From contig JBDIWM010000003.1 in assembly GCA_039638595.1 (NCBI GenBank), positions 50,427-95,588 on the forward strand: DNA of 45,162 nt. Reading direction: 5' to 3'. Below, one piece after another: positions 2,560 through 20,906 of this stretch. Position 1 is the first letter of the stretch, and the number at the start of each line of letters is the position of its first letter. The stretch comes from Atribacterota bacterium (GTDB lineage: Bacteria > Atribacterota > Atribacteria > Atribacterales > Caldatribacteriaceae). The position numbers and the translations under genes were made by a program. The notes under the pieces are model-generated. The model saw nothing but the letters and a program-made list of their open reading frames with translations. It was not told the origin of the DNA and made no database searches.

Positions 2560-2648
2560 GGAGGGGTGCCCGAATTGGCAAGGAACCGGTCTTGAAAACC
2601 GGCATGCTCAAACGAGCTGTGCGGGTTCGAGTCCCGCCCCCTCCGCCA
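2560..2648 (+). tRNA. tRNA-Ser (anticodon UGA)
   Basis: The acceptor strand GGAGGGG pairs with CCCCTCC. The anticodon loop reads CTTGAAA, giving anticodon UGA. There is a long variable arm as expected for serine, and the T-arm GCGGG-TTCGAGT-CCCGC is intact. The discriminator is G and CCA is encoded at 2646-2648. The total is 89 bases. It is convergent with the LarA-like gene, whose stop lies nine bases further on. Confidence 0.95.
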
Positions 2649-13615: not shown

Positions 13616-14727
13616 TTATTTCCACCCCATCAGCTGGTAGGCTTCCTCTAAAAATGCCTGGACTTTTACCCCGTCTTCGATGGTGGCACCTTGCGCCTTT
13701 TGACCACTCCACCGCAGAATAAAATCGTGTATGCAGGCCACATGGGCGTTGGTCCAGCCAAAGGCAAATTTCCCCGGGAGAGCATAGGGATGGGGGAACT
13801 GGGCCACGGTTTCAATCTGTTTAAAACCTCGTCTACCACCTATCGGGGCACCAGAGTCGGTAAGGTCGTAGAATTCTAAAAAGTTTGGCTGCATGGAGTT
13901 ATAGCGGAGAGCTCCTTTACTACCCTCAATTTCAATGCGGATTTCGTCACAGCTTCCGGTAGCAAAACGGCTCGTTTCCAGAGTCCCCTCGGTCTCTTCA
14001 GGAAGGGTAAAATGGACCAGTGACCAGTCATCGACTTCGATGGGTTCTTTTTCTTTTGCGCCGGGAGCAATCGGCCTTTCGGTGATGAAGGTCCGTCCTC
14101 GGGCGGAGACGATTTCTGGTTCTCCCAGAAGGAAACGCACCAGATCCACAAGATGCGACCCCAGGTCCCACAGGGAACCACCACCGGAAAGGTCTTTTTT
14201 GAGCCGCCAGCTCAGCGGGCGCGCTGGGTCCACATATCCAGAGTGAAGGTACGAAAATCGGGTTCGAAAAACCCTGCCGATTTTTCCTTCATCAATCAAT
14301 TCTCTGGCTTTCTGGATAGCTGGAACAAAACGGTTCTGGAAGGCCATTCCAAATGGGATTCGGGCTTCTTTAACCACCTTTTCCATGGCAAGTGCTTCTT
14401 CAAGATTGAGGGCCAGAGGTTTATCGCAATAGATAGCTTTTCCAGCACGGGCTGCTTTTTCCACCACCACTCTATGTCCGGCGTTGGGGAGCGCAACCAC
14501 CACCATCTCAATCTCTTTATTGTTCAAGAGCATATCGAGTGAATCGGTTGCCCAGATGCCGGTCTCCTGTTGCACCTTTTGTGCTGTTTCGGGACGCGAT
14601 GTACAAATGCCTCGAATTTCGGGAAGGAAGGGGAGTTCATGAAAGGCGTATGGTAAAACGGAAAGGGCAAGTGCATGAATCCGGCCAATGAAACCAAATC
14701 CAACGATACCCACGCCTTTTTTTTCCA

Positions 14728-14728
<1 letters not shown>
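13616..14728 (-). CDS. Gfo/Idh/MocA-family oxidoreductase
   Basis: This 370-residue cytoplasmic NAD(P)-dependent dehydrogenase has the N-terminal Rossmann motif VGIVGFGFIGRIHA. The conserved CDKPLALNLEEA block near residue 104 carries the catalytic-type lysine. The C-terminal alpha/beta domain starts at GKIGRVF and includes GGGSLWDLGSHLVDL, whose Asp/His are typical active-site residues. The family oxidises sugars, inositols or sugar derivatives, and the substrate cannot be read from sequence. The ATG at 14728 overlaps the serS stop, so it is the last gene of the T-box operon and is coupled to serS. A GTG one codon earlier is possible. Why it sits with serS is unclear. Confidence 0.85.
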
Positions 14729-17488
<2,760 letters not shown>

Positions 17489-17511
17489 ATGTCTTCATCC
17501 TCCCCAGCATG

Positions 17512-17931
17512 TCAGATATCAAAATAGACCTGGGCTCGAAAGTGTTGAGGGTGAATTTCCTCGACTTTAACCTCATAATAAGTGCAAGCCTTGATCACCC
17601 GCTGGATGAGGTGTTTTTCCTGGTCAATTGATTCTCCTGAAACTTTTGCCTTCAGATAGTACTGTCCCAATTCTTCAATGGCAAAACACGTAAGGAGGTA
17701 TCCCTCGGCTTCAAAGAGATACAGCAACTCATTGAGCCAGGTCACCAGGAGGTCTTCGTAGTCGTTGCCCTTCACCTCAACGGTTACTGTTGTGCGACAC
17801 TCTACATTTCCTAACTCACTAATGAGGGAAAACATTCCCAAGGCAGCGTTGGCAAAGAGCGCTTCGAGCGTTTCTCCCCAGGCAACTAACCCCACGTCAG
17901 CGGTATGGTCAAGAATTTCAAATGGTTTCAT
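17512..17931 (-). CDS. Archease, RtcB activator
   Basis: This 139-residue protein is of typical archease length. The acidic metal-binding motif DHTADVGL lies at residues 8-15, WLNELLYLFE is in the middle, and the C-terminal acidic residues are in place (VYFDI at the end). Archease speeds guanylylation of RtcB and lets the ligase turn over many times. The gene directly precedes rtcB in the same operon, the common pairing. It follows serA by only eight bases, so it is unlikely to have its own promoter and should be controlled by the upstream T-box. Confidence 0.93.
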   Translation of the reverse strand: MKPFEILDHTADVGLVAWGETLEALFANAALGMFSLISELGNVECRTTVTVEVKGNDYEDLLVTWLNELLYLFEAEGYLLTCFAIEELGQYYLKAKVSGESIDQEKHLIQRVIKACTYYEVKVEEIHPQHFRAQVYFDI

Positions 17932-17939
17932 AATTCCTC

Positions 17940-18893
17940 CTAATATCCGATTGGCACTCCCTCTCCAATGCGAAAAATAGCCTTCAGTTTGTTGATTAAA
18001 ATCTCTGTAGCGTTCACGAAGGCTTCTTCGGTGCTCCCCCCAATGTGGGGTGTGCAGATTACATTCTCTTTCCGCAGACAGCTTACATCGGTTGGCGGTT
18101 CGGTATCATAGACATCGAGGGCGGCGCCTGCCAGATGTCCTTCATCAAGCGCCTGTAACAACGCTCCCTGGTTGACCACCTTGCCTCGGGAAGTGTTGAT
18201 CAGGTAGGCCCCCTTTTTCATCTTCTTAATGGCTTCTTCGGAGATCAACCCTTCGGTATCTTTATTCAGCACCACATGAAGTGAAATGATGTCACTTTTT
18301 TCCAAGAGTTCATCCAGACGCATAGCCCGTTTCACACCCTTATTGTTGAACTCTTCGTCTTCCACGTAGGGGTCGTAGGCAATCACTTCTGCACGCAAGG
18401 CCTTGGCGATCTCAGCAACCCTTCGGCCAATACCCCCAAAACCAATGATTCCCCAAATTTTCCCTTCCACCGTTTGGCCAGTGTACTTGTTTTTTGCCCA
18501 CTGTCCTTCTTTTAAAAGGGAGCAAGCGGGGCACACGTGCCGCAACAGCGCGATTGCTAAACCAACTGTGAGTTCAGCCACGCTCGAGGCTGATGCTTCG
18601 GGAGAATTAATCACCTGAATACCTCGCGCTTCACAGGCTTTCTTATCGATATTATCTGTTCCCACTCCCGGTCTTGCCACCACCTTCAGGTTTGGGGCGT
18701 TCATCACCACGTTTGCAGTGACTTTGGGTTTCGAACGGACCACAAAGACATGTTTGTCCTTTATGGCACGAATGATGTCGGCTTCGTCATCAGAAGGGAG
18801 CACTTCGACTGGACCAATTTCTTCGGTGAATCGCTTCACCATATCCTCTGGTACACCGTGGGCGCACAGAATACGAATTTCCTCCTTACTCAT
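17940..18893 (-). CDS. serA: D-3-phosphoglycerate dehydrogenase (short form, no ACT domain)
   Basis: This 317-residue D-isomer-specific 2-hydroxyacid dehydrogenase has PNLKVVARPGVGTDNID near residue 70. The NAD motif is WGIIGFGGIGRRVAE near 145. The catalytic Arg is in NTSRGKVVN near 233, Glu is in DVYDTEPP and His is in TPHIGGST. It catalyses the first step of serine synthesis from 3-phosphoglycerate. The length fits SerA proteins without a C-terminal regulatory domain. The start at 18893 has GGAGGTG seven bases upstream and overlaps the end of the pseudo-aminotransferase gene by eight bases. Placement behind a serine T-box supports the serine role over other 2-hydroxyacids. Confidence 0.88.
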   Translation of the reverse strand: MSKEEIRILCAHGVPEDMVKRFTEEIGPVEVLPSDDEADIIRAIKDKHVFVVRSKPKVTANVVMNAPNLKVVARPGVGTDNIDKKACEARGIQVINSPEASASSVAELTVGLAIALLRHVCPACSLLKEGQWAKNKYTGQTVEGKIWGIIGFGGIGRRVAEIAKALRAEVIAYDPYVEDEEFNNKGVKRAMRLDELLEKSDIISLHVVLNKDTEGLISEEAIKKMKKGAYLINTSRGKVVNQGALLQALDEGHLAGAALDVYDTEPPTDVSCLRKENVICTPHIGGSTEEAFVNATEILINKLKAIFRIGEGVPIGY

Positions 18894-19860
18894 TGTAATA
18901 CACCTCCTGAGCTCTATTAATTCCCTCTTGAATCCTAAGGGGAATTCCTTGGCTCGATACAATCGTTCCCAGAACATGACACAAAGCCACGATGAGTTGA
19001 GGCGTTCGATATTCCCGGTGGTCAATGCGGATGATCTGGTTTTCCTTCCGTTTTAATCGGTTTACACCTCCCATATCTTGTTTGACAAGGTCATCGAGCA
19101 CCTGGTCCACATCCACACCTCCAGGAAGACGAATGGTGGTGAAAACTGGTGAAGCGATTTCGTCCCTTTTAACCAGAAGCTCTAATCCCATGGTTTTTAT
19201 GCCAGCGCGGAGGGTTTTTTTGATTTTCTGGTACTCTATAAGGCGATTTTTTTCGAGCATCGTTTCAATTGAAGCAAGGAATTGAGAGGAAAATTGGCCT
19301 CCGTAAGGGTATTGCCAGTCATCGGTCCTCTGAAAACCTCTTAAAGCTTTTTTGCTGGTGCTTACAAGATGTATCGCTTCCGATGCCCCTGTTACCAGAA
19401 CATCCACATCCCATTCATCCACGGCAAGTTCTACCATCCCCAGCGTATCCCAGGCTGAAACTACACAACCAATCCCTTTTGCCCGACACGTTTTTGCAAT
19501 CGGTGCAACGTCCACTACCAGTCCCGTCGATGTTTCGTGAACGGTGAGAAGCAATCCTTTTATGGTTTTTCCACCGATGCTTTGCCAGAGGAGTTCGATA
19601 TCCTCTTCTCGTATCGTTTCTCCCCACTCACTGCCCAGGCGAATGACGTTAAACCCTGACTGTTCGGCAATACTTGCCCAGTGGTCACTATCTTCCCCCA
19701 TAATGGGTACAAGAAGTGTCGCTCCTGGTGGGAAAAAGCTAACCGTCACTTTTGCTAAGACGGTATTTTTGACCTCTGGCCACAGCATCACATCACTTTT
19801 TGTTCCCAGGGTCATTTTCAGTTTAGATATGACCTCTTGAACGGACCTTTGCTCCTCCAT
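18886..19860 (-). CDS. Class V aminotransferase-like protein without the PLP lysine
   Basis: This 324-residue protein is clearly related to serine-pyruvate/alanine-glyoxylate aminotransferases: VHETSTGLVVDV near residue 107, and DEWDVDVLVTGASEA near 148, where relatives have VDVxVTGSQKAL. The Schiff-base lysine is replaced by E161. The Asp that holds the pyridine nitrogen (VDA) is S135. The phosphate-binding GSGTGA region and the first ~40 residues of the fold are absent or altered. It therefore should not work as a PLP enzyme. It sits where the aminotransferase partner of SerA is expected, right behind the serine T-box. The start could be 19860 (GGGGG upstream) or 19872. Confidence 0.75.
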   Translation of the reverse strand: MEEQRSVQEVISKLKMTLGTKSDVMLWPEVKNTVLAKVTVSFFPPGATLLVPIMGEDSDHWASIAEQSGFNVIRLGSEWGETIREEDIELLWQSIGGKTIKGLLLTVHETSTGLVVDVAPIAKTCRAKGIGCVVSAWDTLGMVELAVDEWDVDVLVTGASEAIHLVSTSKKALRGFQRTDDWQYPYGGQFSSQFLASIETMLEKNRLIEYQKIKKTLRAGIKTMGLELLVKRDEIASPVFTTIRLPGGVDVDQVLDDLVKQDMGGVNRLKRKENQIIRIDHREYRTPQLIVALCHVLGTIVSSQGIPLRIQEGINRAQEVYYNE

Positions 19861-19878
19861 ATTCGCCCCCATTTAAAT

Positions 19879-19908
19879 AAAAAACTCTCGCCCAGGGGCG
19901 AGAGTTTT
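19879..19908 (-). terminator. T-box regulated intrinsic terminator
   Basis: On the minus strand AAAACTCTCGCC pairs with GGCGAGAGTTTT around a CCTG loop and is followed by a run of T. Its 5' arm overlaps the region after the antiterminator, as in standard T-box leaders. Confidence 0.9.
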
Positions 19909-20111
19909 CCCGCGGTGCCACCCTCATTCAATGGGTTCACCCATCCTCATTAGGCTAACGCCTTCGGCGGAAGTAGCTACTCTCCTTTCACCACTTCGGC
20001 TCCAGGACGGATTCAAAGGAGAGAAAAACCGGTTTACACCTTCATCCGGATCTCTGTGTATTTCTCTTTCCTTTTACTATTTCCCTTCTTCGCCTTTATC
20101 AATTATTGAAT
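19879..20111 (-). promoter_or_regulatory. T-box riboswitch, serine specifier (UCC)
   Basis: The leader reads on the minus strand. The T-box core AGGGTGGCACCGCGG occupies plus-strand 19910-19924. The AGTA motif of stem I and the distal loop GGTGTAAACCGG are present. GAA-TCC-G-TCCTGGAGC on the 3' side of stem I places the specifier codon UCC at 20009-20011 (serine). The UGGC bulge can pair with a GCCA tRNA end, and serine tRNAs have a G discriminator. Uncharged tRNA-Ser(GGA) should favour the antiterminator over the terminator at 19879-19908. It controls the downstream genes from 19860 leftward. Confidence 0.93.
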
Positions 20112-20310: not shown

Positions 20311-20511
20311 ATGCGTACGAATATTGTCATTGACGATGAACTCTTAAAGGAAGCAATGGAATTAGCCCGGGTCAAAACCAAAAAAGAGGCTGTGGCGGTT
20401 GCCCTCCAGGAATTCGTCCGAAATAGAAGGAGAAAAAATCTTGGGGAATTGAAGGGGAAAATACAATTCGCTGAAGAGTACGATTATAAAAGTATGAGGA
20501 ATACCCTGTGA
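20311..20511 (+). CDS. vapB: VapB-family antitoxin
   Basis: This is a 66-residue protein. The N-terminus RTNIVIDDELLKEAMELA followed by KTKKEAVAVALQEFV is the ribbon-helix-helix DNA-binding fold of VapB antitoxins. The C-terminal tail (KIQFAEEYDYKSMR) would wrap the toxin. It neutralises the PIN-domain toxin encoded next and normally represses its own promoter. I chose the ATG at 20311 for its GGGAGGTG ribosome site, although the open frame extends seven codons upstream. The gene overlaps vapC by GTGA. Confidence 0.9.
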   Translation: MRTNIVIDDELLKEAMELARVKTKKEAVAVALQEFVRNRRRKNLGELKGKIQFAEEYDYKSMRNTL

Positions 20512-20906
20512 TTCTGGTCGACACTTCGGTGCTCATCCCCTTTCTGAAAGGAATCGAAAACGAAAAAACCAGAAAATTTGAGGAACTGCTCAAGAAGAGT
20601 ATTCCTTTTGGAATCAATTATTGCATTTACCAGGAAGTTTTGCAGGGTGCTCGAGACGAAAAGGAATTCAGAGTCTTGGAAAAGTACCTCTCTTCGCAGA
20701 TATTTTATGAATTCCAATATGGTCGTGAATCGTATCAAAAAGCAGCCCTTCTTTATCTCCGTTGCCGGAAAGCGGGGTTCACGATACGCAGTACCGTCGA
20801 TCTTATCATCGTTCAGACAGCGATTGAAAATGGTCTCTACCTTTTGCATGACGACCGAGATTTCACAATCATTGCCAGAGTCGAGAATAAATTGATGGAA
20901 TGGTAA
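20508..20906 (+). CDS. vapC: VapC-family PIN-domain ribonuclease toxin
   Basis: This 132-residue PIN domain has its acidic residues in place: VDTSVLIPF (D5), the Glu in YQEVLQGA, STVDLIIVQTA and HDDRDF. These coordinate Mg/Mn for RNA cleavage. Toxins of this family typically cut tRNA or rRNA. Translation starts at a GTG overlapping the vapB stop, which couples toxin to antitoxin. The pair appears intact, unlike the two MNT/HEPN loci in the same window. It is divergent from the serine T-box operon that carries the RtcB repair ligase. A link between tRNA cleavage and repair is only a thought. Confidence 0.92.
   Translation: MILVDTSVLIPFLKGIENEKTRKFEELLKKSIPFGINYCIYQEVLQGARDEKEFRVLEKYLSSQIFYEFQYGRESYQKAALLYLRCRKAGFTIRSTVDLIIVQTAIENGLYLLHDDRDFTIIARVENKLMEW

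Follow-up and report, generated by a model that had tools for sequence, protein, structure and literature searches.

Genes of the PF00266 family that share an operon with serA are predicted, in the available portion of the report on them (PMC9026213), to encode alternative phosphoserine aminotransferases, designated SerC3. The locus analyzed here resembles the SerC3 arrangement of that report portion (PMC9026213) in that a class V gene and serA lie in one operon, and the description suits the intact orthologues of f2 and f3. However, the class V protein of this locus, designated pAT, is without a PLP site, and the likeness is one of class and operon place. A retained homologue of a PLP enzyme that, like pAT, is without the PLP lysine is found in LCB1/SPTLC1 of serine palmitoyltransferase, according to the part of PMC3794620 that could be consulted; LCB1, in contrast, belongs to a different subclass and its partner is its own catalytic paralogue. 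A T-box over serine biosynthesis, as in the present locus, occurs in Paenibacillus polymyxa, and the accessible text of the source (PMC8002221) describes no pseudo-aminotransferase. A class V-like fold is also combined with an aminoacyl-tRNA synthetase in Mycoplasma penetrans, whose MetRS carries a fused aminotransferase domain (9os7; PMC7694997, available in part), to which the pAT model showed a structural match with a Z score of 29.1. The M. penetrans domain is described there as an active, fused aminotransferase, whereas the fold and the synthetase of the present locus are encoded by separate genes of one operon. A published aminotransferase without the lysine in a serine operon was not found in our searches of open-access papers, among them one on serine in Atribacterota.

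The window is the whole stretch of Atribacterota DNA that was analyzed (45,162 nucleotides; genome G000, C3:50427-95588), and all coordinates below are on its scale. The minus strand carries, in order, a T-box leader, pAT, SerA, archease, RtcB, SerS and Gfo/Idh (Table 1), and this order, with an aminotransferase gene in the place of pAT, was common to f1, f2 and f3 where the contigs allowed. The pAT stop codon and the SerA ATG overlap by 8 nt, and an overlap or close junction was also present in relatives. The pAT open reading frame begins at 19872 (328 residues), and the coding sequence in Table 1 fits the second methionine (MEEQ, 324 residues). No ACT domain was matched in the window SerA by the domain profile search.

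Table 1. Serine operon of the window, with the evidence for each assignment
Feature	Position	Strand	Evidence
T-box leader riboswitch	19891..20099	-	Rfam RF00230, 118.2 bits (gathering cut-off 93, passed)
pAT, class V aminotransferase-fold protein without PLP site, 324 residues from MEEQ	18886..19860	-	
SerA (3-phosphoglycerate dehydrogenase)	17940..18893	-	
AGGAGG ribosome-binding-like site of SerA, within the pAT 3' end	18903..18908	-	sequence
Archease	17512..17931	-	PF01951
RtcB RNA ligase	16028..17488	-	PF01139
Seryl-tRNA synthetase (SerS)	14728..16014	-	PF00587 + PF02403
Gfo/Idh/MocA oxidoreductase, at the end of the conserved cluster	13616..14731	-	PF01408, PF22725

In the leader of the window, the conserved GAA is followed by UCC. 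We take the triplet in this position to be the T-box specifier, in which case UCC denotes serine and the leader is expected to read tRNA-Ser; the UGGC on the antiterminator side presumably fits a G discriminator base. UCC was found in 16/16 leaders read across the order, 15 of which were Rfam matches, while the leader of G013 was read from the sequence and fell below the Rfam cut-off.

A sequence search of solved structures matched pAT to class V aminotransferases, often as two separate stretches, and the Pfam model Aminotran_5 (PF00266) passed its cut-off (28.2 bits vs 21.5) over residues 36-163 only. In HMMER alignments with 3isl, 2dr1 and 3zrp, the column of the PLP-ring Asp held S139 (S135 from MEEQ; codon 19456..19458, minus strand), so that the Asp is absent, and E165 (E161 from MEEQ; codon 19378..19380, minus strand) lay under the Schiff-base lysine. 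The MAFFT alignment of the orthologues placed a gap in pAT at the lysine column because the loop that bears the lysine is also shortened. The strand-to-strand link comprised 5 residues in the pAT model (163-167, including E165), as opposed to 9, with the lysine among them, in the intact model (194-202). An earlier note on this DNA had the lysine replaced by glutamate; its loss was evident in both alignments, but a simple replacement does not account for the shorter loop, and a shortened lysine loop with Glu at the nearest position is the more exact description. The other copies that lack the lysine had Leu, Gly or a gap in this column, compared with Glu or a gap in the window and G001.

The substitution of the ring Asp by Ser and the loss of the N-terminal phosphate-binding part, both claimed in the earlier note, were borne out. 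The N-terminal arm (PGPT...HHR) was missing. The YTP segment was gone as well, D61 stood where the PLP-stacking aromatic is expected, and K35-N36-T37 occupied the place of the GTG/phosphate loop. Fourteen active-site positions were chosen from the intact orthologues, with G017 itself as the reference row; their choice and roles follow what we take to be established in the aminotransferase literature. Four of the 14 (E113, T114, T116 and the carboxylate Arg, R282) were kept in pAT. A shifted PLP lysine was looked for in the orthologue alignment and none was found. K173 and K174 align to the lysines of the intact SVSKKGW motif, which are other than the PLP lysine. An artefact of sequencing was rejected as well, since G001 has the same deletions and the same Glu. 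The loss of catalysis proposed in the earlier note is consistent with the disappearance of the residues of the PLP mechanism, and the absence of PLP-type catalysis is a prediction as sure as a sequence can make it. Phosphoserine transaminase activity is likewise predicted to be absent from the loss of these residues. The SerC models TIGR01364 and PRK05355 gave no match to pAT at E values up to 1. As a class V gene adjoining serA in one operon, pAT conforms to the SerC3-serA arrangement, presumably by descent.

The remainder of the fold is well kept, as the earlier note had held. The AlphaFold2 model of pAT (pLDDT 89, pTM 0.87) had a fold-type I fold, matching 3isl with an E value of 2.2e-23 and 2z9u with a Z score of 34.5 and an rmsd of 2.6 over 323 aligned residues, nearly the full length. 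A chance resemblance to class V aminotransferases is excluded because of the confidence of the model and the strength of the latter match.

Orthologues were sought in 61 genomes and, in addition, in the 25 genomes of the order that were available. An intact enzyme, with 14/14 positions kept, occupied the operon place in G012, G015, G017, G019 and G023 (f2 g5; f3 g8 and g10). Copies without the lysine were truncated in f1 (g1, the genus of the window, g2 and g3) and full-length in f3 g9 (G018), and kept 4 positions in the window, 4 in G001, 2 in G002, 2 in G003, 1 in G005, 2 in G009 and 5 in G018. The variant is therefore present in close relatives, the absence of which the earlier note would have taken as a sign of a decaying gene. 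The glutamate, whose conservation the earlier note had proposed to check, proved to be of no particular significance: Glu was present in both species of g1, but in the least constrained stretch of the protein (43% identity, omega 0.48), and g2, g3 and g9 had other residues or a gap. The copies in g4 (G004, G006, G010) retained 5-7 of the 14 positions, including the lysine and Asp, and had lost the stacking aromatic, the substrate Arg and the Thr of the YTP segment. The G011 copy was frameshifted and had lost about 167 nt from its interior, a C-terminal remnant lay between the T-box and SerA in G013, and the aminotransferase gene was absent from G014 and G016, where no serine T-box was found upstream of SerA and the rest of the operon was kept. 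The order can do without the gene, which is broken or gone in these four genomes. The gene tree placed the losses of the lysine in g1-g3 and in g9 on separate branches. The tree of the neighbouring genes left the order of g1+g2, g3 and g4 unresolved, so that the lysine may have been lost once or more than once within f1.

A SerC gene that passed the equivalog cut-offs of PRK05355 and TIGR01364 was found in the genome of the window, G000, unlinked to the operon (C1:93600-94709), and provides a second, intact aminotransferase, for which the earlier note had proposed a search. A search with this SerC gave matches in 12/61 genomes, a weak one among them in G058, outside the phylum; within the order, SerC was present in 11/25 genomes. 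In the 16 genomes whose operon copy could be scored, SerC accompanied 8/8 operon copies without the lysine and 0/8 of those that bear it (Fisher p 1.6e-4, with relatedness ignored), and the same direction was seen in two separate contrasts, g1-g3 vs g4 in f1 and g9 vs g8/g10 in f3. The nine genomes left out of this table were G013 with its remnant, G014 and G016 with no gene, and G007, G008, G020, G021, G022 and G024, in which the operon copy was not seen; the contigs of G007 and G021 end in or at SerA. Three of the nine (G007, G013, G014) had SerC, which was not found in the other six (G008, G016, G020, G021, G022, G024). In g4, no SerC was found in 4/4 genomes and the operon copy was eroded in 3/3 seen. 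GlyA was present in all three genomes searched (G004, G006, G010), and the formation of serine from glycine is therefore open to them. The presence of SerC likely allowed the loss of the lysine, on evidence that is correlational and weakened by g4, as the erosion of the g4 copy is unexplained by SerC and does not fit neatly with such a course.

Selection on pAT was assessed by pairwise omega values, computed with our own GY94 script from the start codon and with the last 25 codons removed. The values given below for intact enzymes, SerA and g4 pairs, the bootstrap, the stretch-by-stretch omegas and the neutral simulation used stop-to-stop open reading frames, which brought T-box or overlap sequence into the 5' end of some genes; this raised the omega of archease from 0.11 to 0.28. 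The value for G000-G001 was 0.262 (297 codons; 2dlnL 60.0 vs omega 1), with a bootstrap interval of 0.16-0.31 for the whole open reading frame (60 resamplings), and this pair samples evolution after the loss of the lysine because the loss is common to both. In g3, omega was 0.198 for G003-G005 (2dlnL 78.3), 0.187 for G003-G009 (2dlnL 78.4) and 0.239 for G005-G009 (2dlnL 59.1). The pair of G009 and the broken G011 gave 0.304 (191 codons; 2dlnL 20.3). Pairs of intact enzymes gave 0.020-0.023, SerA gave 0.028-0.103 in 9/10 pairs and 0 in the nearly identical G014-G016, and the g4 copies were likewise near 0.2. The branch model returned similar values, 0.25 for the g1 tips (2dlnL 75), 0.24 for g3, 0.21 for g4 and 0.03 for the intact branches. 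Omegas on the deep branches were unreliable, with the lengths of the G002 and G018 branches at the bound, and the value of 0.064 for G018 (2dlnL 28) was not relied on. Neutral simulation at d=0.96 left 22% identity and about 14 stops, with 0/300 runs free of stops, whereas G000 and G001 were 66% identical with no stop over 328 codons at a dS near 1.

Signs of decay (stops, frameshifts, omega near 1) were absent from the window, G001, G003, G005 and G009 and present in G011 (frameshift) and G013 (remnant). Purifying selection on pAT after the loss of the lysine is, on these sequence comparisons, well supported in g1 and g3. A simple pseudogene in the genus of the window was ruled out by omega and the neutral simulation, and pAT of that genus is best described as a maintained pseudoenzyme. 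The claim of the earlier note that the gene is not decaying holds for this genus, where omega was 0.26 with the ends trimmed, but does not extend to G011, G013, G014 and G016. Constraint was unevenly distributed. In g1, codons 151-210, the former active-site stretch noted above, were the least constrained, and constraint was strongest in the stretches from codon 211 onwards (omega 0.06-0.13), while in g3 the N-terminal half was better conserved than the C-terminal half. Since g1 and g3 are constrained in different stretches, there is no pointer to one shared binding surface. Charged residues were kept between G000 and G001 at 77/107 positions and hydrophobic residues at 84/131, a difference that is not significant (p 0.21); in g3, charged residues were kept less often than hydrophobic ones.

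The reading we prefer, with a probability of roughly one half, is that the operon enzyme was displaced by SerC and that pAT was then kept as a non-catalytic protein, perhaps with SerA as its partner. The ancestor of pAT would have been the PLP aminotransferase encoded in an operon under a serine-responsive T-box, and SerC3-like in being of class V and adjoining SerA, and the unlinked canonical SerC would carry out phosphohydroxypyruvate transamination in the lineage of the window. The operon copy, once freed, would have lost the N-terminal arm, phosphate loop, stacking aromatic, Asp, lysine loop and YTP segment, and become a pseudoenzyme through non-orthologous displacement by SerC. Continued purifying selection on its amino acids in the genus of the window and in g3 suggests that a non-catalytic job was kept or gained, and the most probable role for pAT is one without catalysis. 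The earlier note had proposed that pAT may regulate or stabilise SerA, or bind serine or tRNA; nothing in the analysis spoke for binding of serine or tRNA. The co-translated SerA is the foremost candidate partner: the operon, the gene overlap and the lack of an ACT match in SerA suggest that pAT may bind it, with binding elsewhere, or upkeep of the fold before final loss, as serious rivals. We infer the ancestral reaction and the causal order of the displacement in the same way as this partnership. That pAT is a dedicated non-catalytic subunit, a stabiliser or serine sensor, of the ACT-less SerA under serine T-box control after the takeover by SerC is put forward tentatively and is, in this specific form, rather unlikely; the full-length copy of G018 without the lysine may be a second, independent case.

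It is possible, though we doubt it, that pAT is functionless and in slow decay, its constraint reflecting selection against misfolding of a still-expressed protein and its loss yet to come. The gene has been lost or broken in G011, G013, G014 and G016, its omega is about tenfold above that of the intact enzyme and the former active-site stretch changes fastest, all of which would be expected of such a course. However, 328 codons free of stops and an omega of 0.2-0.26 at a dS near 1 argue otherwise, and a constraint on the fold alone should favour the core, whereas charged residues were kept as often as hydrophobic ones between G000 and G001. The 8-nt overlap with the SerA ATG, repeated as an overlap or close junction in relatives, could instead mean that the reading frame is kept as a spacer, so that ribosomes trail the T-box transcript and pass to the SerA start. 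This is improbable, as SerA has its own AGGAGG site and is present without an aminotransferase gene in G013, G014 and G016, and a spacer has no need of amino acid conservation, yet omega is well below 1 away from the 3' end. A role for pAT as the catalytically inactive half of a heterodimer, with SerC or a different aminotransferase as the other half, we regard as equally improbable. In fold-type I enzymes, which are dimeric, the subunits share their active sites, and the N-terminal arm and YTP segment reach the site of the dimer partner. The co-occurrence of pAT and SerC (8/8) would agree with a heterodimer, but SerC is present without pAT in G013 and G014, its gene is unlinked, and pAT no longer has the two parts, arm and YTP segment, with which it would complete the site of the partner. 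LCB1 offers a precedent for a subunit without the lysine, as far as the consulted part of PMC3794620 describes it. Finally, E113, T114, T116 and R282 are still there, and catalysis of a different reaction by the remaining residues, with no Schiff-base lysine, could be imagined; it is very improbable, given that the PLP-stacking, phosphate-binding, ring-binding and Schiff-base residues are all gone and that constraint on the protein in g1 is weakest at the former site.

The related genomes show stages of displacement at one operon position (intact without SerC, eroded, selected pseudoenzyme, broken, remnant and gone), and this series allows a direct test of what selection retains in a protein once its catalysis has gone. 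There is a warning here too: an aminotransferase beside SerA is not to be counted as a phosphoserine aminotransferase before its lysine has been checked.

Several other genes were observed. Archease and RtcB lie inside the serine T-box operon with SerS throughout the order (16028-17931, minus strand, in the window), and from this operon place RNA repair or tRNA ligation appears to be tied to the supply of serine. A VapB antitoxin (20311-20511) and a PIN-domain VapC (20508-20906), both on the plus strand, are divergent from the operon and directly upstream of the T-box. A tRNA-Ser with the anticodon TGA is encoded on the plus strand of the same window (2560-2648). On contig C1 of G000, an encapsulin shell gene (Linocin_M18, 205 bits; L002:541-1335) is located just upstream of the unlinked serC.
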